This document shows, one piece after another, positions 32,655 through 52,238 of a stretch of 64,000 nt of DNA. Origin of the DNA: Rhizobiaceae bacterium (lineage in GTDB: Bacteria > Pseudomonadota > Alphaproteobacteria > Rhizobiales > Rhizobiaceae). The notes beneath the pieces were generated by a model. The model did not search any database, was not told the origin of the DNA, and was given only the letters and a program-made list of their open reading frames with translations. The stretch covers positions 23,586 through 87,585 of the forward strand of contig JABABQ010000045.1 of the NCBI GenBank assembly GCA_014238155.1, in the 5' to 3' direction. The stretch's first letter is position 1. Each line of letters opens with the position of its first letter. A program made the translations under genes and the position numbers.

Positions 32655-33530
32655 ATGTGCGGCATTGTTGGCTTATTCTTGAAGGACAAGGCGCTTGAGC
32701 CCGAACTCGGCGGCCTGCTGACCGATATGCTGGTCACCATGTCGGACCGTGGGCCCGACAGCGCCGGAATTGCGGTCTATCGCGGCGCTGATGATGGCAA
32801 GGTAAAAATTACCTTGCAATCTTCCAATCCTGAGCAGGACTTCGAAAATCTTGAAGCAGACCTGAACACCGAGGTCGTGCGCATTGATAGCCATGCCATT
32901 GTCTCCTGCCCTGCAGATCACGCGGACACCATATTGGAGCAGCTCTCGGCCATGCCGCATCTGCGGGTCATGTCGACGGGCGATGCCATTGAAATCTACA
33001 AGGAAGTGGGCCTGCCAAAATCGGTTGCGGAACGGTTTAACATTCACCAATTGCAGGGCAGTCACGGCATTGGTCACACGCGCATGGCCACAGAAAGCGC
33101 AGTTACGACGCTGGGCGCCCATCCCTTCTCCACAGGTCCCGACCAGTGTCTGGTACACAATGGATCGCTCTCCAATCACAATTCATTGCGTCGACGTTTG
33201 GCCCGACAAGGGGTGAATGTAATAACTCAAAATGATACCGAAGTGGCTGCGGCCTATCTGACCTGGAAGATGCAGAATGGCTGTGACCTTGGAGAAGCAC
33301 TGGAAGCCGGAATATCCGACCTCGATGGATTTTACACATTCGTTGTTGGAACCCGCAACGGGTTTGGCGTATTGCGCGACCCGATTGCCTGCAAGCCAGC
33401 GGTACTGGCGGAAACAGAACAATATGTCGCATTCGGCTCAGAATACCGCGCCCTGGTGAATTTGCCTGGAATTGAACAGGCAAATGTGTGGGAACCCGAA
33501 CCTGCCACCGTTTATTTCTGGGAGCATTAG
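32655..33530 (+). CDS. Class-II glutamine amidotransferase (GlxB/MgsA type)
   Basis: 291 residues. The N-terminal Cys (MCGIVGLFLKD) is the amide nucleophile after Met removal. Further motifs are MSDRGPDSAGIAVY, GIGHTRMATES, FSTGPDQCLVHNGSLSNH and NDTEVAAAYL. It matches the stand-alone GATase subunit of the three-part glutamate-synthase-like enzyme known as GlxB in Sinorhizobium and MgsA in methylamine users. It releases ammonia from an amide (glutamine or gamma-glutamylmethylamide) for the GlxC/GlxD partners encoded next. ACGGGAGA precedes the ATG. Spacing to glxC-like is 2 bp. Confidence 0.9.
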   Translation: MCGIVGLFLKDKALEPELGGLLTDMLVTMSDRGPDSAGIAVYRGADDGKVKITLQSSNPEQDFENLEADLNTEVVRIDSHAIVSCPADHADTILEQLSAMPHLRVMSTGDAIEIYKEVGLPKSVAERFNIHQLQGSHGIGHTRMATESAVTTLGAHPFSTGPDQCLVHNGSLSNHNSLRRRLARQGVNVITQNDTEVAAAYLTWKMQNGCDLGEALEAGISDLDGFYTFVVGTRNGFGVLRDPIACKPAVLAETEQYVAFGSEYRALVNLPGIEQANVWEPEPATVYFWEH

Positions 33531-33532
33531 TC

Positions 33533-34236
<704 letters not shown>

Positions 34237-34237
<1 letters not shown>

Positions 34238-35577
34238 TGGATAAGACGCCCGGAACCCATCCTGTGAAACCCTGGACTTTCGACGATTATACAAACTCCT
34301 ATATTCGCCGGGCTGCAGCCACCGGGATTTATGACATTCGCGGCGGCGGTGCCAAGCGCCGGGTGCCGCATTTTGATGATCTGTTGTTTCTCGGCGCGTC
34401 GATGTCGCGCTATCCGTTGGAAGGTTATCGCGAGAAATGTGAAACCAAGGTGGCGCTGGGTACAAGGTTCGCCAAAAACCCCATCATGCTCGATATCCCG
34501 ATCACAATTGCCGGAATGAGCTTTGGGGCTTTGTCCGGCCAGGCCAAGGAAGCGCTGGGGCGCGGGGCAAATGCTGCAGGCACGTCGACGACAACCGGTG
34601 ACGGCGGCATGACCATTGAGGAACGCAGTCACTCCAACAAGCTGGTCTATCAGTACCTTCCTTCCCGATACGGCATGAATCCTGATGATCTGCGCAAAGC
34701 TGACGCCATTGAAATCGTTGTTGGACAGGGAGCAAAACCCGGTGGTGGTGGCATGCTTCTGGGACAGAAAATTTCAGATCGCGTTGCCGAAATGCGCACC
34801 TTGCCAAAAGGCATCGATCAGCGATCCGCCTGTCGCCATCCTGACTGGACCGGCCCTGATGATCTGGAAATAAAAATACTGGAGCTGCGTGAAATTACCG
34901 GATGGCGCGTACCAATTTACGTCAAGATCGGTGGTGCCAGACCGTATTTTGACACCACTTTGGCCATAAAGGCAGGTGCAGACGTAGTTGTGCTGGACGG
35001 CATGCAGGGTGGCACGGCGGCCACTCAGGATGTCTTCATCGAACATGTCGGCCAACCAACCCTTGCCTGCATCCGCCCTGCCGTCCAGGCGCTGCAGGAT
35101 CTTGATGTTCATCGTGAAGTGCAACTGGTTCTCTCAGGCGGCATCAGAACCGGTGCCGATGTGGCCAAAGCTCTGGCACTGGGTGCCGATGCGGTCAGCA
35201 TCGGAACGGCTGCTCTGATCGCGCTGGGAGATAATGATCCCGCACTTGAGGGGGAATATCAAAAACTCGGCACCACAGCTGGAGCGTATGATGACTGGCA
35301 TGAAGGCCAGGACCCGGCTGGTATCACCACCCAGGATCCCAAACTGGCGGCCCGGCTCGACCCGGTGGCAGCGGGAAGACGCCTGGCAAATTATCTGAAA
35401 GTGATGACACTGGAAGCACAAACAATCGCCCGCGCTTGCGGCAAAAATCATGTTCTCAATCTGGAGCCTGAAGACCTTTGCGCGCTGACGATTGAAGCAT
35501 CTGCCATGGCGGGCGTACCGCTTGCCGGCACGAACTGGATACCCGGTCAGACACCGGAATCCGGTAAACACGACTAA
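34237..35577 (+). CDS. FMN-dependent glutamate-synthase-like subunit (GlxD/MgsC type)
   Basis: 446 residues. The barrel of the glutamate synthase central region is recognisable: PITIAGMSFGALSGQAKEALGRGA, TTTGDGGMTIEERSHS, VGQGAKPGGGGMLLGQKIS, VYVKIGGARPYFDTTLAIKAGADVVVLDGMQGGTAATQ and LVLSGGIRTGADVAKALALGADAVSIGTAALIALG. A late AQTIARACGKNHVLNLEPEDLCALT region ends it. It transfers the amino group to a 2-oxo acid or forms N-methylglutamate in characterised Mgs systems. With GlxB and GlxC it makes a three-subunit enzyme. A 14-bp gap leads to the glutamine-synthetase-like gene. Confidence 0.92.
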
Positions 35578-35591
35578 ACAGGGAGCAGACT

Positions 35592-36899
35592 ATGGCCAAG
35601 GATCTTGCCAAATTTGCCGCCGACAATGGCGTCAGGTTTTTCCTCTTCAACTTTACCGACCTGTTCGGCGTCCAGCGTGCCAAGCTGGTGCCGGCTGAAG
35701 CGGTCGGCGGCATGCAAAAATCGGGCGCCGGTTTTGCCGGATTTGCCAGTTGGCTCGATATGACCCCGGCACATCCAGACATGTTCGTCATGCCGGATCC
35801 CGACAGTGTCATCCAACTGCCCTGGAAACCACAAATTGCCTGGGTTGCCGGTGATCCGTGGATGGATGGTGAACCGGTGGCGCAGGCGCCGAGAAACGTT
35901 CTGAAAACGCTGAATGCCAGAGCCGCTGAGCTGAATTTTAAAATGATGTCAGGGGTCGAACCGGAATTTCACCTGATCAATGTCGACGGATCGGGCATCT
36001 CCGATGATCGGGATACACAGGAAAAGCCCTGCTATGATCAAAGCGCTCTGATGCGCCGGTTCGATGTCATATCTGAAATCTGCACCACCATGATCACACT
36101 TGGATGGGGCCCCTATCAAAACGACCATGAAGACGCCAATGGTCAGTTCGAAATCAACTGGGATTTTGGAGATTGTCTGCAAACCGCTGACCAGCACGCA
36201 TTTTTCAAATTCATGGTAAAAGCCATTGCTGAAAATCACGGCCTGCGGGCAACATTTATGCCGAAGCCCTTTTCCAATCTCACGGGAAATGGCTGTCACG
36301 TTCATCACTCGGTCTGGACACCGGATGGCAGCAAATGCCTGTTTGCCGACAATGCAGGTGAATTGGGCCTGTCGGATATGGCCTACAATTTTCTTGGTGG
36401 GCTGATGTCGCATGGCGCTGCGATGTGTGCAATTACCAATCCCACGGTCAACAGCTATAAACGCATCAACGCACCCGCCACATTGTCAGGTGCGACGTGG
36501 TCCCCGTCCTCGGTAACCTATGGCGGAAATAACCGGACCCATATGGTGCGCATTCCTGATGCTGGCAGGCTGGAATTCCGGTTGGCGGACGGTGCGGCCA
36601 ACCCATATTTGCTTCAGGCAGTATTGTTGGCGGCCGGGATAGACGGGATTGAACGCAAACTTGATCCGGGCAAACGTCTGGACATCGACATGTATACCGA
36701 AGGCCACAAGGCACGCGGCGCCCAAAAACTGCCACTCAACATGCTCGACGCCATTCGTGAATTCCAAAAGGACAAATATTTGCGCGACGCAATGGGCTCC
36801 GAATTCTCTCAGGCTTATGTCAAACTGCGGGATCGGGAATGGAACCAATATAGCCACCATCTGAGCCAGTGGGAACGCGATCAAACTCTGGATTGTTAG
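35592..36899 (+). CDS. Glutamine-synthetase-family ligase (GlnT or gamma-glutamylmethylamide synthetase type)
   Basis: 435 residues with GGGAG upstream. Catalytic glutamine-synthetase motifs are present: EPEFHLI, EDANGQFEINWDF, NGCHVHHSVW, NSYKRINAPATLSGATW, NNRTHMVRIPDAGRLEFRLADGAANPYL. It joins glutamate to ammonia or a small amine with ATP. In GlnT/GmaS clusters the gene sits directly beside glxBCD/mgsABC, as here. Without the N-methylglutamate dehydrogenase genes (mgdABCD), which are absent from the window, methylamine use cannot be asserted. The active-site residues do not let me choose between ammonia, methylamine or another amine. Confidence 0.9.
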   Translation: MAKDLAKFAADNGVRFFLFNFTDLFGVQRAKLVPAEAVGGMQKSGAGFAGFASWLDMTPAHPDMFVMPDPDSVIQLPWKPQIAWVAGDPWMDGEPVAQAPRNVLKTLNARAAELNFKMMSGVEPEFHLINVDGSGISDDRDTQEKPCYDQSALMRRFDVISEICTTMITLGWGPYQNDHEDANGQFEINWDFGDCLQTADQHAFFKFMVKAIAENHGLRATFMPKPFSNLTGNGCHVHHSVWTPDGSKCLFADNAGELGLSDMAYNFLGGLMSHGAAMCAITNPTVNSYKRINAPATLSGATWSPSSVTYGGNNRTHMVRIPDAGRLEFRLADGAANPYLLQAVLLAAGIDGIERKLDPGKRLDIDMYTEGHKARGAQKLPLNMLDAIREFQKDKYLRDAMGSEFSQAYVKLRDREWNQYSHHLSQWERDQTLDC

Positions 36900-37127: not shown

Positions 37128-37796
37128 ATGAACCCACTTGAAAAATTGAACGGGAGGTTGGTGGTTTCCTGCCAACCGGTGGACGATGGCCCAATGGATC
37201 GTCCCGAGATTACCGCTGCAATGGCGCTCGCCGCCGCCGCAGGCGGTGCTGCCGGGTTGCGCATCGAAGGACTTGATAATCTGGCTGCAATCCGCCCGCT
37301 GACCGACCTTCCCATTATCGGCATCGTCAAACGCGACCTTGAGGAATCCGAGGTGCGCATTTCACCTTTCAGTCAAGACATCATCGATCTGGCAAAACTG
37401 GGGGCAGACATTATCGCCTATGATGCCACCCAGCGTCACAGGCCGGAGCCGACTGCACAACTGGTCGATCAGATCAAGAATTGCGGAAAATTCGCCATGG
37501 CTGATTGTGCCAACCTTTCAGATGCCAAACAGGCTTTGGAGGAAGGCGCCGACATTATCGGAACAACGCTTTCAGGCTATGCCTACGATATCGCCCCCCC
37601 AGGCACACCACCAGACACCGCACTCGTCAGCGAAATTGCCAAACTGGCTGCCTTCGTCATGGCTGAAGGACGTTACAACAGCCCTGCCCTTGCTGCACAA
37701 GCCATGGCCGCTGGCGCCAATAGCGTCACGGTTGGCAGTGCCGTCACCCGTGTTGAACACATCACCGACTGGTTCGTTCAGGCGCTGGCACGATGA
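37128..37796 (+). CDS. nanE: N-acylmannosamine-6-phosphate 2-epimerase
   Basis: 222 residues. The whole chain follows the NanE pattern: LVVSCQPVDDGPMDRPEITAAMALAAA, AGLRIEGLDNLAAIRP, PIIGIVKRDLEESEVRISPF, LGADIIAYDATQRHRPEP, FAMADCANLSD, DIIGTTLSGYA, VMAEGRYNSPALAAQAMAAGANSVTVGSAVTRVEHI. It converts ManNAc-6-phosphate (or a glycolyl analogue) to GlcNAc-6-phosphate, the third step of sialic-acid breakdown. The stop overlaps the ROK kinase start (ATGA). It lies 228 bp after the glutamine-synthetase-like gene and 12 kb from nanA. Confidence 0.95.
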   Translation: MNPLEKLNGRLVVSCQPVDDGPMDRPEITAAMALAAAAGGAAGLRIEGLDNLAAIRPLTDLPIIGIVKRDLEESEVRISPFSQDIIDLAKLGADIIAYDATQRHRPEPTAQLVDQIKNCGKFAMADCANLSDAKQALEEGADIIGTTLSGYAYDIAPPGTPPDTALVSEIAKLAAFVMAEGRYNSPALAAQAMAAGANSVTVGSAVTRVEHITDWFVQALAR

Positions 37797-38737
37797 GCGG
37801 CGATCATCTCCCAAGTGGCATTGCCGTTGATCTTGGTGGCACCAAAATTTCCGCTGCACGCGTGACCAACGGCGATGTTGGAGACATTATCAAGGCTGAA
37901 ACCGACCCCAATGCGTCGATCGACAATCAGATCGCTGCAATTTGTCACCTGGTGCACCAAATCGACCTGACCGGCGGCGGCGGCGGCGGTGACGGCGGCG
38001 GCGGTGGCGGTGGCGGTGGCGGTGGCGGTGGCGATAGCAAAATCATTGGGGTCGCGGTGGCTGGGCGGGTCAGTTCTGACGGTGAATGGTACGCGGTCAA
38101 TTCCGATATATTGACTCAAATCGACAAAGTGCCACTGCGCCAGATATTGACCCAACAATTGGGGCAGCATGTGACAGTTGAAAACGACGCCACAGCCGCA
38201 GCACTTGGAGAACTCACCTGCGGAGCCGGTAAGAACAGCAATTCATTTGCCTATATCACCGTATCCACCGGCGTTGGCGGTGGCATCATACTGGATGGCA
38301 GACCTGTCGTATCTGCTTCAGGACTGGCAGGCCATATAGGTTTTACGACATCCCGAATGCAGGGAGAACTCTGTGGAAGCGGTCGCACCAATACGGTGGA
38401 AAGCATCGCCTCGGGCCGGGCCCTTTCTGCCGCCGCGGCCAAAATTGGCCATGCGGGACTGAATGGCAAGCAAGTCTACGATGCGCATCTGTCGGGCCAG
38501 TCATGGGCGACACAGCTGGTTTCCAATTCAGCAGCAGCGATTGCCGAATTGAGCAGCAATCTGAAAGCCGTTCTGGACATCGATGCCGTGGTAATCGGTG
38601 GTGGTGTCGGTCTGGCGGAAGGTTATGCGGAATTGGTTGAGGCCCATTTGCAAGATGAACCCGAGCTGTTTCGCCCAAAAGTGCATCGCGCTGCACTGAA
38701 AGAGAATTCTGCCCTTGTTGGCGTTCTGGTGCGCTAG
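37793..38737 (+). CDS. ROK-family sugar kinase (N-acylmannosamine kinase candidate)
   Basis: 314 residues, overlapping nanE by 4 bp. Motifs are the ATP phosphate loop VDLGGTKISAARV, VENDATAAALGE (catalytic Asp), ITVSTGVGGGIILDG, LAGHIGF and DIDAVVIGGGVGLAEGY. The ROK zinc cluster, normally C-x-C-G-x-x-G-C-x-E, reads CGSGRTNTVE here, so two of three cysteines are lost (Ser, Thr). Residues 61-80 are a run of 19 Gly and one Asp from a GGC/GGT repeat, placed in the loop before the IIGVAVAGRV strand. Gene order makes NanK (ManNAc to ManNAc-6-phosphate) the best guess. Confidence 0.88.
   Translation: MSGDHLPSGIAVDLGGTKISAARVTNGDVGDIIKAETDPNASIDNQIAAICHLVHQIDLTGGGGGGDGGGGGGGGGGGGGDSKIIGVAVAGRVSSDGEWYAVNSDILTQIDKVPLRQILTQQLGQHVTVENDATAAALGELTCGAGKNSNSFAYITVSTGVGGGIILDGRPVVSASGLAGHIGFTTSRMQGELCGSGRTNTVESIASGRALSAAAAKIGHAGLNGKQVYDAHLSGQSWATQLVSNSAAAIAELSSNLKAVLDIDAVVIGGGVGLAEGYAELVEAHLQDEPELFRPKVHRAALKENSALVGVLVR
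37973..38032. repeat. In-frame GGC/GGT microsatellite inside the ROK kinase
   Basis: Twenty codons: GGC or GGT at all but one (GAC at 37991-37993). The second half is an alternating GGC-GGT hexamer repeat, expected to be prone to slippage in 6-bp steps that keep the frame. Confidence 0.95.
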
Positions 38738-40532: not shown

Positions 40533-41918
40533 TCAGATGGCGTTGAAATCGGCGCGCCAGCTGGCGAGCAGCGGATCGCTGGTTTGCTCAAGGAATTCAT
40601 TCAATTCATTTCGCATCGCCGTTAGACGCGACTGATGTTCGTCCCGTTCGATCAGATTGCGAATTTCTGCAGGATCATTTTCAAGATCAAACAATTCGCC
40701 ACCCTGGTCGCGATACCACACATATTTGAACCGCTGCAGTTCGATCATCCTCCAGTCCGTCACATTCATCCAGTCGCCGATGGGCCGCTGCATGGCAAAG
40801 GACGCCGGATTGTCAGGGTCCGACCAATCACCGCCCATCAAATCTCGTCCGGGCCATGCATCGTGATTCTCAAGATCGCACAGGGCCGCGAGCGTCGGGG
40901 CAACGTCGATCAGGCTGGCCGGCATATCGGTGCTCGATTGGCCCTCTATTGCCGGTGGATAGCGCATGATCAATGGCACACGGATGGACTCATCATAGGG
41001 CACCATTTTTTGCCACAGGCCGTGAGACCCAAGATTTTCCCCATGATCCGACGTGTAAACGACGATCGTATTGTCCAACAGGCCCTGCTCTTCCATCACA
41101 TCGATCACCCGCCCGACCATATCGTCGATCATTGTTACAAATCCCCAATAGACCGCATAGCTCGCCCGCCAGGCGTCGAAGTCTTCACCATGGTCAAGGA
41201 ATAACTGGCGATAATAGCTTGTCTTGTTGACATTGTGCTCACCGGTCTGGGGTCCAAAGTTACCGGGAAGCGGAACATCTTTCGGGTCATACATGGAAAA
41301 ATACGGCTCGGGGATCATGAAAGGCGGATGCGGTCCATTGTATGAGACAACCTGAAAAATTGGTTTTTCAGGGTCACGATCGCGGATCATCTGCAAGGCA
41401 AAATCCGTGACATAGGCTTCGTTGGTTTTGTTGACCGGCAGGTCCTGGCAATGAACTTTTGGTATCGACATGGAAGGGGTGCGTGTGGTGCGCGTCGCCG
41501 GATCGTTGAACATCCAGCCATCAATCAGCCCCTGATCCCTGCACCACTGGCTGTAGATCGGGGTGCTGTCGCCGGCATGATTGTCGGTAAAATCGCCAAT
41601 GTTCCCCTCCCCCATATGCCATTTTCCGGCATAGTTGATCTGATATCCGGCACCGCGAAAATGATCCAGCATTTCACAGGATGTCAGGTAACCATCCTGA
41701 TTGGACATCATGTCATTTTGCGTTGGATAAAGGCCGGTAAACAGCGACGCCCGTGACGGCAGACACAGCGGACACGGCGTTATTGCCCGGTCAAAACTGA
41801 CACCCTCATTTGCCAGACGATCTATGTTGGGAGTGCGACAGGGGGTCTGACCGCGGAACCCAAGCGTATCGGGACGTTGCTGATCGGTCATGATGAGCAG
41901 AACATTGGGTTTGGTCAT
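40533..41918 (-). CDS. Sulfatase (type I, formylglycine-dependent), copy 2
   Basis: 461 residues from the ATG at 41918, chosen because the sulfatase fold begins there (KPNVLLIMTDQQRPDTLGF). The formylglycine Cys is C52 in CLPSRASLFTGLYPT. Later motifs: NYAGKWHMGEG, FQVVSYNGPHPPFMIPEPY, YTSDHGENLGSHGLWQK and PASLIDVAPTLAAL. No signal peptide, so likely cytoplasmic, acting after import. It is the last gene of the GntR-ABC-sulfatase operon, 7 bp after the preceding sulfatase. It removes sulfate from an unknown ester. Confidence 0.93.
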   Translation of the reverse strand: MTKPNVLLIMTDQQRPDTLGFRGQTPCRTPNIDRLANEGVSFDRAITPCPLCLPSRASLFTGLYPTQNDMMSNQDGYLTSCEMLDHFRGAGYQINYAGKWHMGEGNIGDFTDNHAGDSTPIYSQWCRDQGLIDGWMFNDPATRTTRTPSMSIPKVHCQDLPVNKTNEAYVTDFALQMIRDRDPEKPIFQVVSYNGPHPPFMIPEPYFSMYDPKDVPLPGNFGPQTGEHNVNKTSYYRQLFLDHGEDFDAWRASYAVYWGFVTMIDDMVGRVIDVMEEQGLLDNTIVVYTSDHGENLGSHGLWQKMVPYDESIRVPLIMRYPPAIEGQSSTDMPASLIDVAPTLAALCDLENHDAWPGRDLMGGDWSDPDNPASFAMQRPIGDWMNVTDWRMIELQRFKYVWYRDQGGELFDLENDPAEIRNLIERDEHQSRLTAMRNELNEFLEQTSDPLLASWRADFNAI

Positions 41919-41925
41919 GTCTTGA

Positions 41926-43395
41926 TCAGTCTTTGCTGTTTGGTGTGAGATAGGCGCTGGTGGCGTCAAACTGCCCGGACTGAGTGCGCCACTGGCCGTT
42001 GAATTTTGCCACACAGTCGCGCAATGGATCATCAAAAAGCGCGGTTTCCTGTATCATCGCCTGGCGCATTGTGTGCATCACAAGTGCTGAGGATTCGTCC
42101 TTCGCCAGATTGCGCATTTCATGGGGGTCGTTGTTTAAGTCATACAGTTCGTCGCGATCTCCGGGGCTGAATATCAGCTTCCATCCATCATCGGAGACGA
42201 TCATGCGCTGCGAATACAGATAACGCAGTCCGTGAAATTCAGCCAACAGATAGTCCCGGCCAGCCGCCGATTGATCCAAAACCTGTTGCGAAAGGTCATT
42301 GGCCTGTCGCTGAAAATCGCCAAGCCCCAACAGACCGAGCGCCGTTGGCAATATGTCCATGTTCAATGCAAGGCCTGCCCGTTTTCCATGCGGCAGACCG
42401 GGATGTGCAAAGACCAGTGGTACCCGCATCGCCTCTTCATAAAGCAGACCCTTGTCGATCAACCCGCCATGAGCGCCGGTCATATCGCCATGGTCTGACG
42501 TGAAAACGATCAGTGTTTCCTCCATCAATCCGCTCTTTTCCAGATAATCCAGCAACCGTCCGATCTGGTGATCGAGCATGGCAACATGGTCACAATATAA
42601 GCCAATATATTCAATCGCTTCGGCGTCAGTCCGCGGATGCAGGCGGTAGAAGTCATCACGCTCCCGGATCACCTTTTCCGGCTTGTCCTGCAGATCATCG
42701 CGAAAATTGGCCCAGGGTCGTATTTTTTTCCGATCGGTGAATTGATGGAATTCATCGCAAATCAGATGAGGCCCGTGCGGGTCCCAATATTGCAGGCTGA
42801 CAAAAAACGGTTGATCGCCGCTGCGCATGTCTTCAACCATATCGATGGCCTGATTGGTCTGAAAATGCGCCGGTGTTGACTCAACCGGCCCGTGCCAGCG
42901 CCCCGCTGCCATTGTCTGCTTATCGGGATTGAAGAACAGCGTCGGCGTGACCGAATAGTCCAGTTGATTGGACTTCAGATAGCCCTTGAAAGCGTCTGTC
43001 GTCGTCAGATTTCCATAGCCCGGCAGCACCTCGCCTTCAAAGCCGTAATCTGCCGGTGATTTTTCAACCCCCACATGCCACTTGCCAACAAAGCCACAGC
43101 GATAGTCAGCCGCCAACAATTGCTTGTGCAGCAACCTGTCCGGATCGGCCAGCTCCTTGCCCAGCGCGTGATACATATCGCAATTGGTGCCCATGCCGTG
43201 GGTAAAGGCATAGTCGCCTGTAAACATTGAAGCGCGTGACGGGGTGCAAAGCGGGCACGTTGCATAGGCGCGTTCAAAGGTTACGCCGGAACTGATCAGG
43301 CGATCTATATTCGGGGTTTCAACTTCAACCGATTTATTCGGTCCAACAACGTCCCAGCGCAACTGGTCAACTCCGATGAACAGCAGATTTTTCAC
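41926..43395 (-). CDS. Sulfatase (type I, formylglycine-dependent), copy 3
   Basis: 489 residues from a GTG at 43395 whose GTGA overlaps the stop of the upstream ATPase gene. The family start follows at once ([18 protein letters not shown]). The formylglycine Cys is C50 in CTPSRASMFTGDYAF; other motifs are GFVGKWHVGVE, FFVSLQYWDPHGPH and FTSDHGDMTGAHGGLIDKG. No signal peptide. The translational coupling to an ABC transporter ATPase is strong evidence that its substrate is what the transporter imports. It is divergent in sequence from the sulfatase encoded downstream, so the two probably attack different positions or compounds. Confidence 0.93.
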   Translation of the reverse strand: MKNLLFIGVDQLRWDVVGPNKSVEVETPNIDRLISSGVTFERAYATCPLCTPSRASMFTGDYAFTHGMGTNCDMYHALGKELADPDRLLHKQLLAADYRCGFVGKWHVGVEKSPADYGFEGEVLPGYGNLTTTDAFKGYLKSNQLDYSVTPTLFFNPDKQTMAAGRWHGPVESTPAHFQTNQAIDMVEDMRSGDQPFFVSLQYWDPHGPHLICDEFHQFTDRKKIRPWANFRDDLQDKPEKVIRERDDFYRLHPRTDAEAIEYIGLYCDHVAMLDHQIGRLLDYLEKSGLMEETLIVFTSDHGDMTGAHGGLIDKGLLYEEAMRVPLVFAHPGLPHGKRAGLALNMDILPTALGLLGLGDFQRQANDLSQQVLDQSAAGRDYLLAEFHGLRYLYSQRMIVSDDGWKLIFSPGDRDELYDLNNDPHEMRNLAKDESSALVMHTMRQAMIQETALFDDPLRDCVAKFNGQWRTQSGQFDATSAYLTPNSKD

Positions 43396-44405
43396 TGGGT
43401 TGGCGTGTCTTCGATCAGATGACAGGCAGCAAAATGCTGTTTCCCATCGCGCATATGTGCCTTCAGCTCCGGCACCTCGGTCTTGCAGCGCGCGATTGCC
43501 TTTCCACAACGAGGGTGAAAAGGACACCCGGCAGGCGGATTTATCGGACTTGGCACATCGCCTTTCAGGACGATACGTTTGGTTTTGCGGTCCAGATCGG
43601 CAACCGGAATGGCCGACAACAGCGCTTCGGTATAGGGGTGCAAAGTATCGGCATAAATGTCTTCGGTCTGCGCCAATTCGACCACCCGCCCCAGATACAT
43701 AACGGCGATCCGGTCGCAGATATATTCCGTCACCGACAGGTCATGGGTGATGAAAATATAAGTCAGGTTGCGCTCGTTCTTCAGGTCCAGCAGCAATTGC
43801 AGAACCTGGGCCTGGATGGAAACATCCAATGCACTGACCGCCTCGTCGCAAACAATCAGCTCCGGATCGATGCACAGCGCTCTTGCAATGCCGATACGCT
43901 GACGTTGACCACCGGAAAATTCGTGGGGATAGCGGTCCATATACTCACGGCGCAGATTAACCGCCTCAAGCAGATCACCGATGATTTCGCGGCGCCGTTT
44001 TTTTGACTTCACGCCATACAATTTCAACGGATCTTCAAGCGAACCAAAGATCGTAAAGGCCGGATTGAGCGACGAATGGGGGTCCTGAAATACGATCTGT
44101 AATTTGTTGCGGTGGCCAACCATTTCGGCATCGCTCAACCCACGAAGTTCCACCGGTCCGTCGGCTGAATTGTAGGTGATTTCACCCGCTGTCGCACGCA
44201 CAAGCTGCAGGATTGATTTGCCGAGCGTGGTCTTGCCGCAACCACTTTCGCCGACCAGACCCAATACCTCGCCGCGTCGCACGTCGAGATCCACGCCATC
44301 CACCGCCTTCACATGGCCGACGACCGAATTGAAAACGCCCTTTCGAACCGGAAAGTAGGTTTCCAGTCCACGCAATTCCAGAATGTGATCTTCTGTTTCA
44401 GGCAT
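43392..44405 (-). CDS. Peptide/nickel-type ABC transporter ATP-binding protein (DppF/OppF type)
   Basis: 337 residues from the ATG at 44405, preceded by GAGGAG. Walker A is [13 protein letters not shown], signature LSGGQ is in [16 protein letters not shown] and Walker B is [13 protein letters not shown]. The C-terminal oligopeptide/dipeptide domain is present with the [13 protein letters not shown] motif. It energises transport from the inner side of the cytoplasmic membrane together with the ATPase encoded just upstream, overlapping it by 8 bp. The second ATPase makes this a heterodimeric system of the Dpp/Opp/Sat kind. Confidence 0.95.
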
Positions 44406-45402
44406 TTTCCAACAACTCCTCATGCTGCCAGCACATCACCCGATGGGTGTCGGATAAATGCTCTTCTGCTGGCATCTGATTGCAAGCAGCAGTTGCAAAA
44501 TCGCAGCGCGGGGCAAACTGACAGCCTTTGGGACGGTCATAGGCGTCGGGCGTCGCACCGCGAATGGACTTGATATCCTGCGATCTGCCGCGTCCCAGCA
44601 CGGGAATGCTTTCCAGCAACGCCTTGGTGTAGGGATGCCGTGGTCGGCGCAGCACGTCATCGACCGTTCCAGCTTCAACGATATTGCCCATATACATAAC
44701 CGCAACATCATCGGCCAATTCAGCAACCACACCCATATCGTGAGTGATCAGCATAATCGCGGTGTCGTTTTCAGTTTTCAGTTTTTCCATCAACTCGAAT
44801 ATCTGCGCCTGAATTGTCACGTCCAGCGCGGTCGTCGGTTCATCGGCAATCAGAATTTTGGGGTTGCAGGACATGGCCATGGCGATCATTGCCCGCTGCC
44901 GCATACCGCCGGAATAATGGTGCGGATATTCATCGACCCGCTGTTCCGGCGACGGGATGCCCATATCTGCCAGCAATTGAATGGTCCGCTCTCGAATCTC
45001 GGATTTCGACAAGTCCGTGTGATATTGCAGGCTTTCAGCGATTTGAAACCCAATCGTGTAAACCGGATTAAGCGCGGTCATCGGGTCCTGAAAAATCATT
45101 GCTATTTCAGAACCGCGAATGCGCTTCATTTCCGCGCCGTCGCGTTCGAGTTCGTGAATTGCGATTTCACCCGCATCGGAATGATAGGTTATGGACCCTT
45201 CTTCGATGCGCGACAGGCGTGGCAGCAATTGCATGATGGTTGATGCAGTGACAGATTTACCGCAGCCGCTTTCCCCAACAACACAAAGAGTGGATCCCTT
45301 TTTGATGTCGAACGACACACCGTTGACGGCCTTGTTGCATCTCTTATTGGTGTAGAAATACGTCTTTAAATCTTTGACACTGAGGGCGGTTTGCTGGCTC
45401 AT
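44398..45402 (-). CDS. Peptide/nickel-type ABC transporter ATP-binding protein (DppD/OppD type)
   Basis: 334 residues from the ATG at 45402, 4 bp after the permease gene. Walker A is GESGCGKSVTASTI, the signature is YSGGMRQRAMIAMAM, and Walker B is ILIADEPTTALDVTIQ. The D-loop and His switch (LITHDMG) follow. The C-terminal cap has GCQFAPRCDFA. It pairs with the downstream ATPase. In the genome the order SBP-permease-permease-ATPase-ATPase is the normal one for this transporter class. Confidence 0.95.
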   Translation of the reverse strand: MSQQTALSVKDLKTYFYTNKRCNKAVNGVSFDIKKGSTLCVVGESGCGKSVTASTIMQLLPRLSRIEEGSITYHSDAGEIAIHELERDGAEMKRIRGSEIAMIFQDPMTALNPVYTIGFQIAESLQYHTDLSKSEIRERTIQLLADMGIPSPEQRVDEYPHHYSGGMRQRAMIAMAMSCNPKILIADEPTTALDVTIQAQIFELMEKLKTENDTAIMLITHDMGVVAELADDVAVMYMGNIVEAGTVDDVLRRPRHPYTKALLESIPVLGRGRSQDIKSIRGATPDAYDRPKGCQFAPRCDFATAACNQMPAEEHLSDTHRVMCWQHEELLENA

Positions 45403-45406
45403 CTCA

Positions 45407-46321
45407 TCACCCCTGCAATGTCGGGTCGGTGGAATCACGCAATCCGTCACCAATGAAATTGACACTCAAAACGAATAGCGAGATCACCGCGCCAACCGGC
45501 AACCACATCCACCAATTGTTTTGCAACACGCGCAAATCCTGAGCGACGTTCAATATATTGCCCCAGGTTGGAATGCTGAGCGGGACGCCGAGGCCCAAAA
45601 AGCTCAACCCGGCTTCCGCCAGAATAAACATCGCCGTGGTCAGCGTCACATTGACCATGATGGGGCCCAGCGCATTGGGAAGTATGTGCTTGTAGCAAAT
45701 CTTGAAGGTCGACACGCCAAAGCTCTGCAGTGCCTGAACATATTCTTCCTCACGCAGCGACAACATGCGCGCCCGCGACAACCGATACATCGCTCCCCAG
45801 CCGGATATGACAAATATAACGATCAGATTGAACAGGCTTTGGCCGACGATTGAAACCAGCAGCAAAACCAAAATTATCTGCGGGAACGCCATGAAAATTT
45901 CGGATGTGCGCAAGGCGATGGTATCAATCCAACCGCCACGATATCCCGAATAACAGCCAATTGCGACGCCAAAGGAAGCGGAAACCAGCGCACTGCCGAG
46001 ACCCACAAGAATGGATACTCTGCCGCCATAAAGAATACGGGCGAATACGTCACGCCCGGTGCGGTCGGTACCGAAAATATGTTCCCAAGACGGGGATTGA
46101 AGCATCGAACGCAGATCAATTTTTTGCGGATCATGAGAGGTAAACAGTGGCGCAAATATTGCCGACAGCAGGATCACCAGGAAAATAGCGATGCCGACTA
46201 CTGCCAGGCGATTGCTCAACAATTTGCGCAATGCCCGACTGCCGGTACTGGATTTCAGTTTCCCGGCCTCTTCGAGGTCGCGAATGCGGTCGAATTTTTT
46301 ATCAAGGGATGTTTTAGCCAT
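45407..46321 (-). CDS. Peptide-type ABC transporter permease (DppC/OppC type)
   Basis: 304 residues. A cytoplasmic N-terminal tail of about 40 residues precedes a first membrane helix (LAVVGIAIFLVILLSAIFAPLF). The extracellular HIFGTDRTGRDVFARILYGGR block, typical of DppC, follows. The coupling loop reads EEYVQALQSFGVSTFKICYKHILPNALGPI. About six membrane segments in total. It forms the translocation path with the DppB-type protein, whose gene lies 7 bp upstream. Confidence 0.95.
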   Translation of the reverse strand: MAKTSLDKKFDRIRDLEEAGKLKSSTGSRALRKLLSNRLAVVGIAIFLVILLSAIFAPLFTSHDPQKIDLRSMLQSPSWEHIFGTDRTGRDVFARILYGGRVSILVGLGSALVSASFGVAIGCYSGYRGGWIDTIALRTSEIFMAFPQIILVLLLVSIVGQSLFNLIVIFVISGWGAMYRLSRARMLSLREEEYVQALQSFGVSTFKICYKHILPNALGPIMVNVTLTTAMFILAEAGLSFLGLGVPLSIPTWGNILNVAQDLRVLQNNWWMWLPVGAVISLFVLSVNFIGDGLRDSTDPTLQG

Positions 46322-46328
46322 GATCGCC

Positions 46329-47288
46329 TCACCCCAACCTGACGCGTGGGTCGATCAGCGCGGTCAACACGTCGACAATCAGGCTGGCCATCAACACGGC
46401 AAAAACCGACATCAGCGCGATGGACATGACCAGCGGATAATCTGAGCCGCGTACCGCTTCAATAAATTCACTGCCGACACCCGGCCATTGGAAGACTTCT
46501 TCGATGATCACCGAGCCACCGATAAGCGTTGGCAGGCGAAAACCGATCAGCACGACGACCGGGGTCAAGGCCACACGAAATCCGTGAACCAGATTTATGC
46601 GCCATTCAGGTAGGCCCTTGGACCGTGCCGTGCGAATGAATTCCCGCGACAGGGAATCCAGCATTGCAGAGCGGGAATAGCGCATCACACCTGCCGTCAT
46701 CATCAAGGACAGCACGATGCCCGGCAGGATAATATTTGGAAGATGGTCGATAAAACTCTCATCTCCCGGCATCAACCGACCACCGACCGGCAGCCAGTTC
46801 AAATGCAGTGCGAAGATCAGTATCGCAACCAGTCCAAAGAAGAATTCGGGGATGGAAACACCCAGCATGCCGACAACCGTCAGCGTGCTGTCGGTAGCTG
46901 AACCGCGACGCAGAGCGCTGATGGTGCCGAGAACGCAGCCGATAAGCGTCGAAAATAACAGAGCGAATACAGATAGTTCAAGCGTCGCCGGCAACCGGTC
47001 GAGAACAATGGCGCTGATTGATACACCGCCTGAAAGTGAATGGCCGAAATTGCCCTGAACAACATTGACCAGCCAGATACCGAAGCGTTCGAGGAAAGAT
47101 TTATCCAGTCCATAAGCGGCGCGCAATTGCGCCAGCTGTTCGGGGGTTACCTGATTGGCCACTTCCGGATCGATCATGTGCGAGACCGCGTCGCCGGGCG
47201 TTAGCTCAAGCCCGAGATAAACCAGAAAACTGATTACCAGCATCATCGGGAGCGTGATGAGCAGGCGACGGACAATAAATGTCAGCAT
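46329..47288 (-). CDS. Peptide-type ABC transporter permease (DppB/OppB type)
   Basis: 319 residues. The family start FIVRRLLITLPMMLVISFLVYLGLELTPGD is followed by the periplasmic segment with QLRAAYGLDKSFLERFGIWL. The coupling loop is SREFIRTARSKGLPEWRIN. Six membrane segments. It is separated from the solute-binding protein gene by a 98-bp gap that carries a strong hairpin, so its expression may be lower than that of the binding protein. Confidence 0.95.
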   Translation of the reverse strand: MLTFIVRRLLITLPMMLVISFLVYLGLELTPGDAVSHMIDPEVANQVTPEQLAQLRAAYGLDKSFLERFGIWLVNVVQGNFGHSLSGGVSISAIVLDRLPATLELSVFALLFSTLIGCVLGTISALRRGSATDSTLTVVGMLGVSIPEFFFGLVAILIFALHLNWLPVGGRLMPGDESFIDHLPNIILPGIVLSLMMTAGVMRYSRSAMLDSLSREFIRTARSKGLPEWRINLVHGFRVALTPVVVLIGFRLPTLIGGSVIIEEVFQWPGVGSEFIEAVRGSDYPLVMSIALMSVFAVLMASLIVDVLTALIDPRVRLG

Positions 47289-47386: not shown

Positions 47387-48958
47387 TTATTCAGAAATAT
47401 TGGCAAACTTGTTGACGCGCAAAGAGCGGGTATAGGGAATGTCTGCAGGAATGACCCGCATGTGTTCCATCTCTTCAAGCGACTTCACATCGGCGACAGA
47501 CTTGGTGAAACCAAAGTCCAGGCGTCCTGCGGAAGCGTTTTTGATAACGTTGCCGTCGTTTTCACCACTTGGGAAAGCCACGATTTCATCAACCTTGGCC
47601 ACACCGCCGTGATAGTTTTCAAATGGCACGAAGCGGACGAAATCGTTCATCTGAACTTCTGCAACCTTGAATGGGCCGGAACCGACAGGGTTCTGCCAGA
47701 ACGGGTGCTGCTGGAATTCTGCAGGGTTGAGGCCCTCAAGCAGATGTTTGGGCAGTGGTGCAAACTGGCTGAAGGTCAACAGCATGTTTGGATCAAGTAT
47801 TGAGAAATTGATCGTCAGCTTGTCACCGTCAACCGACATGTCCTTGATTGAGTCGAACGTGTTGGCAAATACTCCATTAATGCCCGGCACAGTCTTGGCC
47901 GTTTCGATTGACCAGGTGACGTCGGCAACAGTCAGCGGTTTGCCGTCATGCCAAGTCAATCCGTCTCGAAGATCAAAGGTTACGCTCATGCCGTCGTCTG
48001 ACACGCTATAGCTTTCCGCCAACTGACCACCGGCTGGTGCCAGTGATCCATCTGCAGTCAGCAGATGATCAAGACCAATTTTTGAAAATGGATAAATGCC
48101 GGGATTCAGCCAAGGATGCTGAAAAAACTGACTCGGTGCGGTATTCGTGTAGAGCACTTTTTTGCCATTGGCGTCGGGCTCGGCAGTCCAGTTGACGATG
48201 TTCCAGTCATAGGTGAACTGATCGTTTCCGTACTGGCCACCGTTGCGGCTCATCCGTTTGCTCTCATAGATAAACAGCTGCTGGTAATAGAGCGGGATAT
48301 CGGAAAGGATTTTGTTTTCAAAACGCTCAAAATCCTTAAACGCTTCTTTTTGCTTGGCCACGTCTACGGTACCATTGATGCGGGCAACCAATTCATCGCG
48401 GACTGCATCACCGGGAGTATAAGAACTCTTGCCGGACAAATATCCATTATAGTATTCCTGCAATGCCAGTGCGGCCTTCGCCCCATACGCAATGTCCCAT
48501 TTTACCGCGCTGGTATCGGATCCGGATTCGGGAAGCGCGTTCAGCTGTCCGCCAACATCACCTTCCAGCTTGCGATAGGTCATCTTGATGCCGACATCGC
48601 CAAGATAGGCTTGCAGAGCAACCATCAGATCAGCGGTGAGCTGATCGCCATAGTAATACACAACATCCAATACCTGGCCGTCGTTCCAACCGGCTTCCTT
48701 CAACAAAGCCCGCGCCTTTTCAGGATCGTAGCCATAACGTTCCAGACCTTCTGCCTTATAACCACCGTTGGGGATCATCGAGTCGGCCACAATGGCCTTG
48801 CCCTCAAACAGGGTTTCGACAATGGTATCCATATCGATTGCGTAGGCAATTGCCTGACGAACTCTCTCGTCCGACAATTGGTTGGCTCTGTCAGCCCAGG
48901 CATAGGTCGACGAGAGTGACACGGCGGTTGCCAATGCCATTGCTAGAAATTTTTTCAT
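47387..48958 (-). CDS. Family-5 extracellular solute-binding protein with circularly permuted lobes
   Basis: 523 residues, with TGGAGG before the ATG and a signal peptide (MKKFLAMALATAVSLSSTYAWA). All SBP_bac_5 parts are present but in swapped order. Residues about 23-260 match the half normally at the C-terminus: LSDERVRQAIAYAIDMDTIV at 28-47, then YDPEKARALLKEAGW and the late EFENK-like and QQLFIYESKRMS part. Residues about 262-523 match the normal mature N-terminal half: KKVLYTNTAPSQFF, HPWLNPGIYPFSKIG, ESYSVSDDGMSVTFDLRDGL, WHDGKPLTVADVTWSIE, NPVGSGPFK. The chain ends at LRVNKFANISE, which normally runs straight into the LSDERVRQAI segment. It binds the imported ligand in the periplasm. 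The gene lies in the correct place of its operon, 15 bp after the GntR gene. Confidence 0.92.
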   Translation of the reverse strand: MKKFLAMALATAVSLSSTYAWADRANQLSDERVRQAIAYAIDMDTIVETLFEGKAIVADSMIPNGGYKAEGLERYGYDPEKARALLKEAGWNDGQVLDVVYYYGDQLTADLMVALQAYLGDVGIKMTYRKLEGDVGGQLNALPESGSDTSAVKWDIAYGAKAALALQEYYNGYLSGKSSYTPGDAVRDELVARINGTVDVAKQKEAFKDFERFENKILSDIPLYYQQLFIYESKRMSRNGGQYGNDQFTYDWNIVNWTAEPDANGKKVLYTNTAPSQFFQHPWLNPGIYPFSKIGLDHLLTADGSLAPAGGQLAESYSVSDDGMSVTFDLRDGLTWHDGKPLTVADVTWSIETAKTVPGINGVFANTFDSIKDMSVDGDKLTINFSILDPNMLLTFSQFAPLPKHLLEGLNPAEFQQHPFWQNPVGSGPFKVAEVQMNDFVRFVPFENYHGGVAKVDEIVAFPSGENDGNVIKNASAGRLDFGFTKSVADVKSLEEMEHMRVIPADIPYTRSLRVNKFANISE

Positions 48959-48973
48959 TGTAGTCCTCCAGTT

Positions 48974-49699
48974 TTATCCATTGAGTTTTGCCCCGGCTTC
49001 CGAGTTGTGTTCGAAAGAAAGCCGGAAATAGGTTCCGAAATTTCGGGTGAGATGGGTGGTCAATACCGCCACCGCCTTGTCGGCATCTTTGTCAAGAATT
49101 GCCGATACGATCAGCCGGTGTTCGTCATTGCTGGCCCGGTTTCTGGATTTGAAGTCGGGCAGAATGGCCCGGTTTTTCATCAACCGCCCGACAAATGTAT
49201 CCTGCAGGGCGCCAAAGATCGGGTTGCCGGGAACGTCCGCCAATACGGCGTGGAACCTCACATCAGCTTCGCGAAACCCTTCGACATTATCGAGATTTGC
49301 TTCACAAATTTCGATAGCTTCAACCAGTTTGGCGATCTGCGCATTGGTTGCGTGCACAACCGCATAGCGCAGAACACTGGTTTCCAAAAACAAACGAGCC
49401 TGTTCCAGATGGGCCAGGCCCTCAGCCCCTGAAAAGAAATATTGGGCAGCCTCCCCGACGCCTTCCATGATCTTACCGAGCGTTGGCGCCACGGCGCGGG
49501 GCCGCTTTCCCTTGGAAAGATCGGCAAGACCCATGCTTTGCAGAATGGTCATCGCCTCGCGAATGGCATTGCGTCCGACGCCGAACTCCTCACAAATTTC
49601 CCGCTCCGGTGGAAACATCTGATCCGGGCGGTACTTTCCAGAATGCACATCAGCGGCCAATTTCTTGGCAATATCTGAAGCTGATAGGCGCGTCGCCAT
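48974..49699 (-). CDS. FCD-domain GntR-family regulator (NanR-like role)
   Basis: 241 residues from the ATG at 49699, which has GGGAG upstream; an upstream in-frame extension lacks family resemblance. The winged helix is residues 5-70 (FPPEREICEEFGVGRNAIREAMTILQSMGLADL). An all-helical FCD ligand domain fills the rest: RLFLETSVLRYAVVHA, FREADVRFHAVLADVPGNP and the metal-binding His in NDEHRLIVSAI, then LTTHLTRNF. It is first in the operon with the transporter and sulfatases and divergent from nanA, so it most likely controls both through the palindrome at 49765-49780, in response to a nonulosonate or amino sugar. Confidence 0.92.
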   Translation of the reverse strand: MATRLSASDIAKKLAADVHSGKYRPDQMFPPEREICEEFGVGRNAIREAMTILQSMGLADLSKGKRPRAVAPTLGKIMEGVGEAAQYFFSGAEGLAHLEQARLFLETSVLRYAVVHATNAQIAKLVEAIEICEANLDNVEGFREADVRFHAVLADVPGNPIFGALQDTFVGRLMKNRAILPDFKSRNRASNDEHRLIVSAILDKDADKAVAVLTTHLTRNFGTYFRLSFEHNSEAGAKLNG

Positions 49700-49764
49700 C
49701 TGCAGAATCTCCCGTTTCTGCCATTTACGAAAGCACATAAAATTTTTGGTGTCTACTTTTTTAT

Positions 49765-49780
49765 TTTTGGTTGACCAAAA
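49765..49780. promoter_or_regulatory. Probable GntR operator between gntR and nanA
   Basis: Perfect palindrome TTTTGGT-TG-ACCAAAA, the TGGT-N-ACCA form bound by FadR-subfamily GntR proteins, placed in the 188-bp divergent promoter region. A further half-site (TTTTGGTGTC) lies at 49744-49753 and a looser ACCAA occurs near 49795. Confidence 0.75.
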
Positions 49781-49887
49781 TGTGGATTTCGAATACCAAA
49801 TTGGAAAACAAGTTGGCGACAACGATCAACGGGCTGTTTATTTCTTGACCATTCAGCGATCGCCAAACATCAGGTAAGGACAGGCAA

Positions 49888-50769
49888 ATGAAGGTATCCG
49901 GCTCTATTTTTGCAGCCATGCTAACGCCATTTAACGCAGACGGATCACTGTCCACAGCAGGCGTGGCGCCACTTGTGGATTATGTGCTCTCAAAGGGTGT
50001 TGACGGCCTTTATGCCAGCGGAAGCACCGGTGAAAGCGTTCTGCAAAGTCGCGATGAACGTGCTGCTTTACTGTCTGAGCTGGGCGATTATGCGCGCGAC
50101 AAATGCACGCTCATCGCCCATGTCGGATCAGCCTCAACCGACGAAGCCGTCAGCCTGGCAAAACTTGCCGGTAAGAAGGGCTTTCATGCCCTGTCTGCCG
50201 TGCCACCCTTTTATTACAAGCACAGCTATTCTGACATCGCCGACTATTATAAAGCGATTGTTGACGCTGCTGAATTGCCGCTGATCATCTATAACATCCC
50301 AGTCCTCAGCGGCGTCGATATCCCCACTGAAAAACTGCTGGAACTGCTTGGTGATCACCGCATTGCAGGGGTAAAATTTACAGCACAGGACCTGTTCCAG
50401 TTTGCTGAATTGCGAAAAGCAGCACCTGACAAATCATTCTATTTTGGAACTGATGAAATGTTTCTCGGTGCAGCCGCAGTTGGCACTGACGGGGGCATTG
50501 GCAGCACCTATAATCTGATTGGCGACGTTTATGTCGGCATTCAAAATGCAGTGGCCGCTGCAGACATGGATGAAGCCCGTCGGTTGCAGCGAAAGGCCAA
50601 TGACCTGATTGCGATCCTGTTCAAGACAGGCGTTTTGCCGGGTTTGAAACACGCTCTGAACCGATTGGGAGTCCCCGTTGGTCCCTGCCGCAAACCATTC
50701 AGCGCGCCATCTGCTGAATCCATCAAATTGCTGGAAGGCTGGATGGATGAGCACAATCTCCATCGCTGA
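49888..50769 (+). CDS. nanA: N-acetylneuraminate lyase
   Basis: 293 residues of the DHDPS/NAL aldolase family, and specifically NAL-like. GSTGES lies near residues 45-50, the Tyr that assists catalysis is Y135 in IIYNIPVLSGVDIP, and the Schiff-base Lys is K163 in GVKFTAQDLFQ. The C-terminal part GGIGSTYNLIGDVYVGI...KTGVLPGLKHALNRLGVPVGPCRKPF closely follows NanA enzymes. It cleaves sialic acid to an N-acylmannosamine and pyruvate in the cytoplasm. It is divergent from the GntR-transporter operon and followed 50 bp later by a sulfatase. Confidence 0.92.
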   Translation: MKVSGSIFAAMLTPFNADGSLSTAGVAPLVDYVLSKGVDGLYASGSTGESVLQSRDERAALLSELGDYARDKCTLIAHVGSASTDEAVSLAKLAGKKGFHALSAVPPFYYKHSYSDIADYYKAIVDAAELPLIIYNIPVLSGVDIPTEKLLELLGDHRIAGVKFTAQDLFQFAELRKAAPDKSFYFGTDEMFLGAAAVGTDGGIGSTYNLIGDVYVGIQNAVAAADMDEARRLQRKANDLIAILFKTGVLPGLKHALNRLGVPVGPCRKPFSAPSAESIKLLEGWMDEHNLHR

Positions 50770-50819: not shown

Positions 50820-52238
50820 TTGACGGCACCCAACATCGTCTATCTGATGTTTGATCAGGCAAAAACTGCCGCGATGAGCTTTATGGGCAATCAGGACATT
50901 TCCCTGCCGTTTTGCGATTCGTTGGCTGAACAGGGCTGGGTGTTTGATGAGGCCTATGCCGCTGCGCCGATCTGCACCCCGTCGCGTACCTCGGTTCACA
51001 CCGGGATGTTTCCGCAGGTTCATCAAGTGACCTGCCACCAGAACAGAGCGCCGCACAATCTTCCTCAACTGGCCGAATTGTTGCAAGCCGAGGGATATTA
51101 TACAGCAGCAGCCGGACATTATGAGCCGGAGCGCAATCTGCATCGCGGCTGGCATGAACAATCGCCAATGCATGAACGCGGCCCGCTGTTCAACAGCTGG
51201 ATGGAGCATATTCGATCTGGTCGCAAGGACGTTGCCTGGTCATCGGGAGCCATTGATGTGGATGCCAGTGAGGGAAATTCCGCGCTACTCACTGACCGCA
51301 TGCTGCGTATGATGGAACAGGCCGATGGCAGCGGCAAACCGTTTTTCCTGCACATGTGTTATGACGATCCGCACCCGCCCTATTTCGTGCCAAGGCCCTA
51401 TGACACGATGTACGATCCCGACGATCTGGAATTGCCGGATATTGGCGATTTGGACGATTTACCGGACTGGCACAGGCGCGCCCGTCAGCAGGTTGGAACC
51501 GACAAGGCTACTGATGCAGACTACCGCAAGGTTCTGGCGATCTATTACGGCATGTGCCGCTATATCGATGATGAAATGGCGCGCATCTACAAAGCCCTGG
51601 AGGCGTCGGGGAAACTGGAAAATACGTGGATCATTCTGGGGTCGGATCACGGCGATTACACCGGCGACAAGGGGCTCTTCAACAAATCTGAATCGCTCTA
51701 TAAATGTCTGCTGCATGTGCCGTTGATCATTGTACCGCCCAAGGGTTCAGATGAGCCCGGTCCACAGCGCTTTGCCGATATTGTCAGCACGGTGGATCTG
51801 TTTCCAACCATTTTGTCCATCGCCGGGGCAACGCCACCAACCAATCAGGGAATTGACCTGTTGGACTGGGTGAGAAACGGCCATCAACAGCCGTTGCGGA
51901 AGGAAGTGTTTGCTCAAATCGGTGACTACCATGGCTTTATCAAAACCAGCTGGCCTTCAGGCATGCCCGAAGCCGGGCGCCATGCGAGTCTGACCCACTG
52001 CATACGCACAAGTTCAAAAGCCTATATAGAAGATCCCGACAATGGTGATGAAGCCTATGATCTGGCGACCGATCCCAACGAACTTGTCTGCCTGACCAAA
52101 TCAGGCAATCCACCGCTGGATGAGGAATTTCTGCAGCTGAAATCCCGCCTGAAACAGTTTCGCGATGAATGCGACACCTTGCGCCTGCAGCTTGGCATTA
52201 TTCCCGGAGACCGCGGCTTTGTCGAAGGCTGGGAATAA
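50820..52238 (+). CDS. Sulfatase (type I, formylglycine-dependent), copy 4
   Basis: 472 residues from a TTG at 50820 with GGGGAG upstream. The family start is APNIVYLMFDQAKTAAMSF. The formylglycine Cys is C52 in CTPSRTSVHTGMFPQ. Later motifs: FFLHMCYDDPHPPYFVPRPYD, LGSDHGDYTGDKGLFNKS and STVDLFPTILSIAG. No signal peptide. It is in the same transcript as nanA, 50 bp behind it, which links it to sialic-acid-like compounds. A sulfated sialic acid or a sulfated sugar attached to it is a plausible substrate, by inference. Confidence 0.93.
   Translation: MTAPNIVYLMFDQAKTAAMSFMGNQDISLPFCDSLAEQGWVFDEAYAAAPICTPSRTSVHTGMFPQVHQVTCHQNRAPHNLPQLAELLQAEGYYTAAAGHYEPERNLHRGWHEQSPMHERGPLFNSWMEHIRSGRKDVAWSSGAIDVDASEGNSALLTDRMLRMMEQADGSGKPFFLHMCYDDPHPPYFVPRPYDTMYDPDDLELPDIGDLDDLPDWHRRARQQVGTDKATDADYRKVLAIYYGMCRYIDDEMARIYKALEASGKLENTWIILGSDHGDYTGDKGLFNKSESLYKCLLHVPLIIVPPKGSDEPGPQRFADIVSTVDLFPTILSIAGATPPTNQGIDLLDWVRNGHQQPLRKEVFAQIGDYHGFIKTSWPSGMPEAGRHASLTHCIRTSSKAYIEDPDNGDEAYDLATDPNELVCLTKSGNPPLDEEFLQLKSRLKQFRDECDTLRLQLGIIPGDRGFVEGWE

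Follow-up and report, generated by a model that had tools for sequence, protein, structure and literature searches.

Do the two halves of an importer's binding protein always follow each other in the same order, and if not, what does a protein with the swapped order bind? This question is raised by a reverse-strand gene at 47387-48958 of a 64,000-nucleotide stretch from a Rhizobiaceae bacterium (GenBank assembly GCA_014238155.1, contig JABABQ010000045.1, positions 23,586 to 87,585; hereafter the window). The gene encodes a family-5 solute-binding protein (PF00496, SBP_bac_5) with reversed halves. The swapped order is conserved, purifying selection acts on the gene, and there are orthologues in which the order is normal. 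We consider it highly probable that the protein is a natural circularly permuted family-5 binding protein, present in several phyla, which is predicted to form the usual two-lobe trap and likely delivers sialic acid to the adjoining ATP-binding cassette (ABC) importer.

The reading frame is unbroken, begins with ATG and codes for 523 amino acids. The protein scores 211.8 bits against the PF00496 profile (cutoff 32.4) in two stretches. When scanned alone, residues 23-260 match profile positions 212-328 (95.6 bits) and residues 262-523 match positions 4-205 (120.1 bits). The protein thus departs from the canonical linear order, since profile positions 212-328 come ahead of 4-205, and we therefore classed it as a permuted variant and not as an ordinary SBP_bac_5 member. 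Sequence matches in the PDB are reversed likewise; for example, query residues 312-468 correspond to residues 61-219 of the 5isu chain and query residues 23-225 to its residues 265-464. A profile of normal-order relatives (n = 42) gave two reversed matches of 286 and 296 bits with the protein as it is, and a single colinear match of 602 bits with the rotated protein. The first-pass annotation of this DNA had claimed a circular permutation and had predicted two partial, reversed PF00496 matches for residues 23-260 and 262-523. Both are borne out, and the colinear alignment of residues 23-523 that it had named as counter-evidence failed to appear, colinearity being reached only after rotation. 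Its description of an intact frame, a good ribosome-binding site, a signal peptide and a place ahead of both permeases also agrees with what we see, the signal-peptide-like start (residues 1-22) being judged by eye.

AlphaFold2 modelled the permuted protein with a mean predicted local distance difference test (pLDDT) score of 90.8 and a predicted template modelling (pTM) score of 0.85. The predicted model has the two-lobe fold of SBP_bac_5, as the first-pass annotation had expected of a structure prediction, and in comparisons with solved family-5 proteins each of its halves corresponds to their opposite half. The 50 fold matches listed are titled as peptide-, nickel-, opine- and similar binders of the DppA/OppA kind, a list from which the absence of type I/cluster B proteins is no exclusion of them.

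The swapped order is conserved in several bacterial phyla. All 120 nearest homologues listed, which are 60-93% identical, carry it, as assigned by BLAST of each half separately; this assignment supersedes a regular-expression motif count, in which the pattern was recognized in 108 of the 120 and the other 12 were motif variants or the three proteins that are without the beginning of the N-terminal half. A scan of species genomes yielded 69 loci, comprising 59 permuted, six of normal order (L072-L077; 43-52% identity over the two halves), three remote (L080-L082) and one, L070, in which a contig end cuts the gene past its first half. The search for orthologues of the same order proposed by the first-pass annotation is thus answered positively. 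By record title, the permuted loci belong to Alphaproteobacteria, Oceanospirillaceae, Chromatiales, Spirochaetes, Deltaproteobacteria, Acidobacteria, KSB3, Neomarinimicrobiota and Firmicutes, although many are metagenome bins, whose taxon names are less sure. Two intact permuted loci (L030 and L053) lie on records titled chromosome. A search with a doubled query added 94 proteins to these, of which 80 have the permuted and 14 the normal order. One homologue from that search (P0242), 80% identical, loses similarity past residue 367 and looks frame-shifted. The gene is patchy in the source organism's own family, occurring in two of 151 genomes with the source genome counted; the second copy (L084) is cut by a contig end. 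Compared with the nearest locus (L014), dN is 0.023 and dS 0.745 (dN/dS ~0.03), showing that the binding-protein gene is under purifying selection. The first-pass annotation saw a single permuted gene, correctly, but neither the conserved family, nor the normal-order orthologues with the same operon, nor the sialic-acid-type context.

When the Proteiniclasticum ruminis protein was used as query, all 120 proteins listed had the normal order (Clostridia); their mean identity to the window protein is 50% over one of its halves and 44% over the other. Clostridial orthologues such as those of P. ruminis (L074) and P0176, named Hungatella hathewayi by its source, belong to the same importer family as the permuted proteins: at L072 and L074, permease B is 59-60%, permease C 66-67% and the ATPases 66-67% identical to those of the window. 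After rotation, both orders align over nearly their full length (six normal and five permuted sequences). The normal-order proteins have the canonical order and an 11-residue loop, between the strand motif YTRxxxxN and the helix starting LADxxVR, at the place of the permuted proteins' ends (84 of 84 pattern matches, 120 sequences given). Permuted chains end 2-7 residues past the YTRxxxxN motif plus up to two more (137 of 138 pattern matches, 139 given), and the linker between their old C- and N-terminal motifs measures 14 residues in 92 of 96 pattern matches (43 of 139 unmatched). The cut therefore lies in the loop that joins the two halves in normal-order relatives. These Clostridial orthologues, which lie in the same kind of operon, map it to the loop of one hinge crossing, by homology the place where the chain first passes from one lobe to the other. 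The sources name one permuted protein Enterocloster bolteae (P0301; its cluster occurs on 709 contigs) and one normal-order locus [Clostridium] citroniae (L076).

The features of the window are listed in Table 1. Permease B begins 98 bases past the end of the binding-protein gene. Next come permease C and two Opp/Dpp-type ATPases, which makes up the operon context of family-5 proteins. NanA and NanE both score above their curated cutoffs, which marks a nan catabolic cluster.

Table 1. Coordinates of the permuted gene, its parts and neighbouring features in the window.
Feature	Coordinates	Strand	Basis
Circularly permuted family-5 solute-binding protein, 523 amino acids	47387..48958	-	Open reading frame, PF00496, PDB matches, AlphaFold2
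Ribosome-binding site GGAGG, 6 nucleotides 5' of ATG	48965..48969	-	Read from sequence
Signal-peptide-like start, residues 1-22, AWA at end	48893..48958	-	By eye; AlphaFold2 pLDDT <50 for residues 1-20
Residues 23-261, C-terminal half of normal relatives (PF00496 profile 212-328)	48176..48892	-	
Linker, ~residues 258-267, former C-terminus to former N-terminus	48158..48187	-	
Residues 262-523, N-terminal half of normal relatives (PF00496 profile 4-205), hinge loop at end	47390..48175	-	
ABC permease B (Opp/Dpp type)	46329..47288	-	Profile scan
ABC permease C (Opp4C 333.6 bits, cutoff 350)	45407..46321	-	Profile scan
ABC ATPase D	44398..45465	-	Profile scan
ABC ATPase F	43392..44423	-	Profile scan
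GntR regulator, NanR type (202.5 bits, cutoff 260), immediately upstream	48974..49822	-	
N-acetylneuraminate lyase NanA (316.5 bits, cutoff 281)	49888..50769	+	
N-acetylmannosamine (ManNAc)-6-phosphate epimerase NanE (283.2 bits, cutoff 189)	37128..37796	+	
ROK kinase, NanK type (215 bits, cutoff 283)	37793..38737	+	
Sulfatase, CTPSR motif	41926..43527	-	
Sulfatase, CLPSR motif	40533..42035	-	
Sulfatase, CTPSR motif, no signal-peptide-like start by eye	50820..52238	+	

The NanK-type kinase contains a glycine-rich run, GGGGGGDGGG, near residue 60. Upstream of NanE, consecutive forward-strand genes at 32655-36899 encode glutamine amidotransferase, GXGXG, glutamate-synthase-like and glutamine-synthetase-like proteins, which we take to resemble a split N-methylglutamate synthase cluster that would serve methylamine utilization.

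The neighbourhood recurs elsewhere. At 41 of the 69 loci, a gene from the same aldolase cluster as the window's NanA is found close to the importer. Scans of 27 such aldolases, namely the window's own plus 26 from those 41 loci, gave matches to PRK04147 (the NanA model) at E <= 1e-60 for 23 of them and to a DapA model at this threshold for none. Scored singly, the aldolases of L074 (267.7) and L052 (275.3) fall under the curated NanA cutoff of 281. NanE relatives were found in the fetched flanks of 16 of the 69 loci, 13 permuted and three normal, many contigs being short; the normal-order P. ruminis locus has a NanE at 311 bits. Like some permuted loci, the Clostridial loci L072, L074 and L077 have both NanA-related and NanE neighbours. 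By their gene content, both orders sit in clusters of sialic-acid type. Since loci of either order have NanA-related aldolases, and some loci of each also have NanE, the ligand of the importer is probably sialic acid. Close relatives of the window's sulfatases occur only at the nearest loci, two of them with at least 69% identity at L014-L017 and the third with at least 73% at L014-L019. This hints, as speculation, at sulfated sialic acids as a substrate in the window's close kin; a search of open-access papers brought up nothing on sulfated sialic acid.

After export and removal of the signal peptide, the chain would fold into the canonical two lobes, with the old C-terminus joined to the old N-terminus via the short linker. 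Only one of the two hinge strands would be covalently continuous, the new ends lying at the other. The protein would bind sialic acid (a nonulosonate), close and dock on permeases B and C, and import would be powered by the two ATPases. NanA, NanE and NanK would then break down the sugar, from which, in the window's close kin, sulfatases might first strip sulfate groups.

Several other explanations have to be set against this account. The window's contig is one of 77 in a draft genome, and two gene halves wrongly joined in assembly or annotation would mimic a permutation; yet the order is shared by every one of the 120 homologues listed and, in other assemblies, by 59 of 69 loci, two intact ones among them lying on chromosome records. 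As independent assemblies carry the same swap, we rejected an artefact, to which we give next to no credence. Equally negligible is the chance that we are dealing with a duplicate that has lost its function and is decaying. In one relative, Devosia algicola L064:9965-11622, the permuted gene, counted among the 59, is broken into three overlapping open reading frames; nothing of the kind was found for the window's gene. Its intact frame, its ribosome-binding site, the dN/dS of ~0.03 and conservation across phyla led us to reject a pseudogene, in keeping with the first-pass view that the gene looks functional. It is conceivable, if rather unlikely, that the permutation is real and the ligand belongs elsewhere, among peptides, opines or other acids resembling nonulosonates. 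The ligands of family-5 proteins are diverse, and a Sulfitobacter locus of Devosia/Roseobacter type (L027) has SDR, Gfo/Idh, HpaI-type aldolase and aminotransferase-like neighbours and no NanE relative in the flank; by clustering, L042 and L056 share these neighbours in part. Against such a ligand stand the NanA, NanE, NanK-type and NanR-type genes around the window's gene and the NanA-related and NanE genes that accompany both orders. Some results nevertheless weigh against our preferred reading, a permuted trap for sialic acid. Most Devosia/Roseicyclus loci have a NanA-related aldolase and no NanE relative in the fetched flank, so the ligand may differ there, and Devosia- and Roseobacter-type loci may use a different nonulosonate. 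Whether judged by sequence or by fold, the nearest proteins of known structure bear titles that make them binders of nickel, peptides, opines or chitin oligosaccharides, with the sialic acid binder SatA only one of many; nor does SatA appear in the 21 matches that the normal-order profile gives at E <= 1e-20. In the model, the predicted placing of the two halves relative to each other rests on the pTM. Finally, a doubled-query search of the 7992 candidates sharing most words gave 593 matches, of which the 120 listed were all single copies of 563-597 amino acids, with no tandem-duplicate intermediate.

How the two orders arose is a separate matter. A single branch parts them in the binding-protein trees (Shimodaira-Hasegawa-like approximate likelihood ratio test 100) and in a tree of the four importer subunits (support 98; four of the six normal-order loci and 32 permuted). 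Near-copies, L064 (three reading frames), L070 (contig end) and L081 were omitted from the tree rows. With distant outgroups, the normal-order clade nests inside the permuted part in two binding-protein trees and the subunit tree, requiring two changes, as would be expected if the permuted form were ancestral for the importer family and the Clostridial order a secondary return. We regard this as doubtful: the outgroups are very distant (end branches of 1.4-7.2 in the subunit tree and the thinned binding-protein tree), in one binding-protein tree the four named outgroup rows are not on one side of any branch, and approximately unbiased (AU) tests leave all permuted sequences as a single clade unrejected (p 0.456, 0.169 and 0.417, the latter two from thinned sets). 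Permease C identity drops from at least 67% inside the family to at most 41% outside it (eight genomes), so that no close outgroup was found. As a single clade of permuted sequences is compatible with the AU tests, one permutation event suffices as the simplest account, and we leave its direction undecided. It would be explained by one ancient event, a tandem duplication or a fusion, after which the outer halves were lost and the gene spread between phyla; the tandem duplication proposed in the first-pass annotation is still a plausible route, without the intermediate having been found in the doubled-query search, and a search of the loci for a second copy of the family turned up only remote binding proteins. 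Less likely still than an ancestral permutation is the fuller scenario of a cross-phylum, likely sialic-acid importer class with permuted binders on one hinge strand, in which Clostridia undid the permutation and topology thus switched both ways.

Within a family, binding proteins are, to our knowledge, normally all of one order. In the present case, the two orders occur among orthologues that are ~44-50% identical per half, serve homologous importers and coexist in nature (Enterocloster bolteae versus [Clostridium] citroniae, by source names), a natural experiment on how hinge connectivity affects closing, affinity and docking. The permuted protein shares with family-5 (cluster C) proteins such as DppA, NikZ and AppA the PF00496 profile, the fold of each half and an operon of two permeases and two ATPases, but differs in its reversed halves, its new ends in one hinge crossing and the linker joining its old ends. 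In the open-access literature, screened by title and abstract apart from the papers cited here, we found no description of a permuted family-5 binding protein, in line with the first-pass statement that none was known; an earlier description in subscription papers is possible. The nearest precedent is TpMglB-2 (Tp0684, MglB-2) of Treponema pallidum, which PMC4990184 describes as an ABC binding protein with a naturally occurring circular permutation that its relatives share. That glucose binder is classed there as 'Type Ic / Cluster Bc', a permuted type I/cluster B fold, and differs from the window protein in cut site and in an added fourth crossing, and probably in fold class. PMC10017367 distinguishes SatABCD, SatXYZ and SatEFG as three families of ABC importers for sialic acid, and our results suggest a further one beside them in marine and gut bacteria. 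According to PMC10017367 and PMC11364026, sialic acid import in Haemophilus ducreyi relies on SatA, the peptide-type binding protein of SatABCD. SatA has the normal order and falls outside the nearest sequence matches of the permuted family; its chains (5yyb, 5z99 and 5za4) match the permuted protein at E 2e-14, behind many others and thus no closer than other family-5 proteins. In plan, however, SatABCD, with its peptide-type binding protein and ABC importer, is the closest of these three systems to the permuted importer family.
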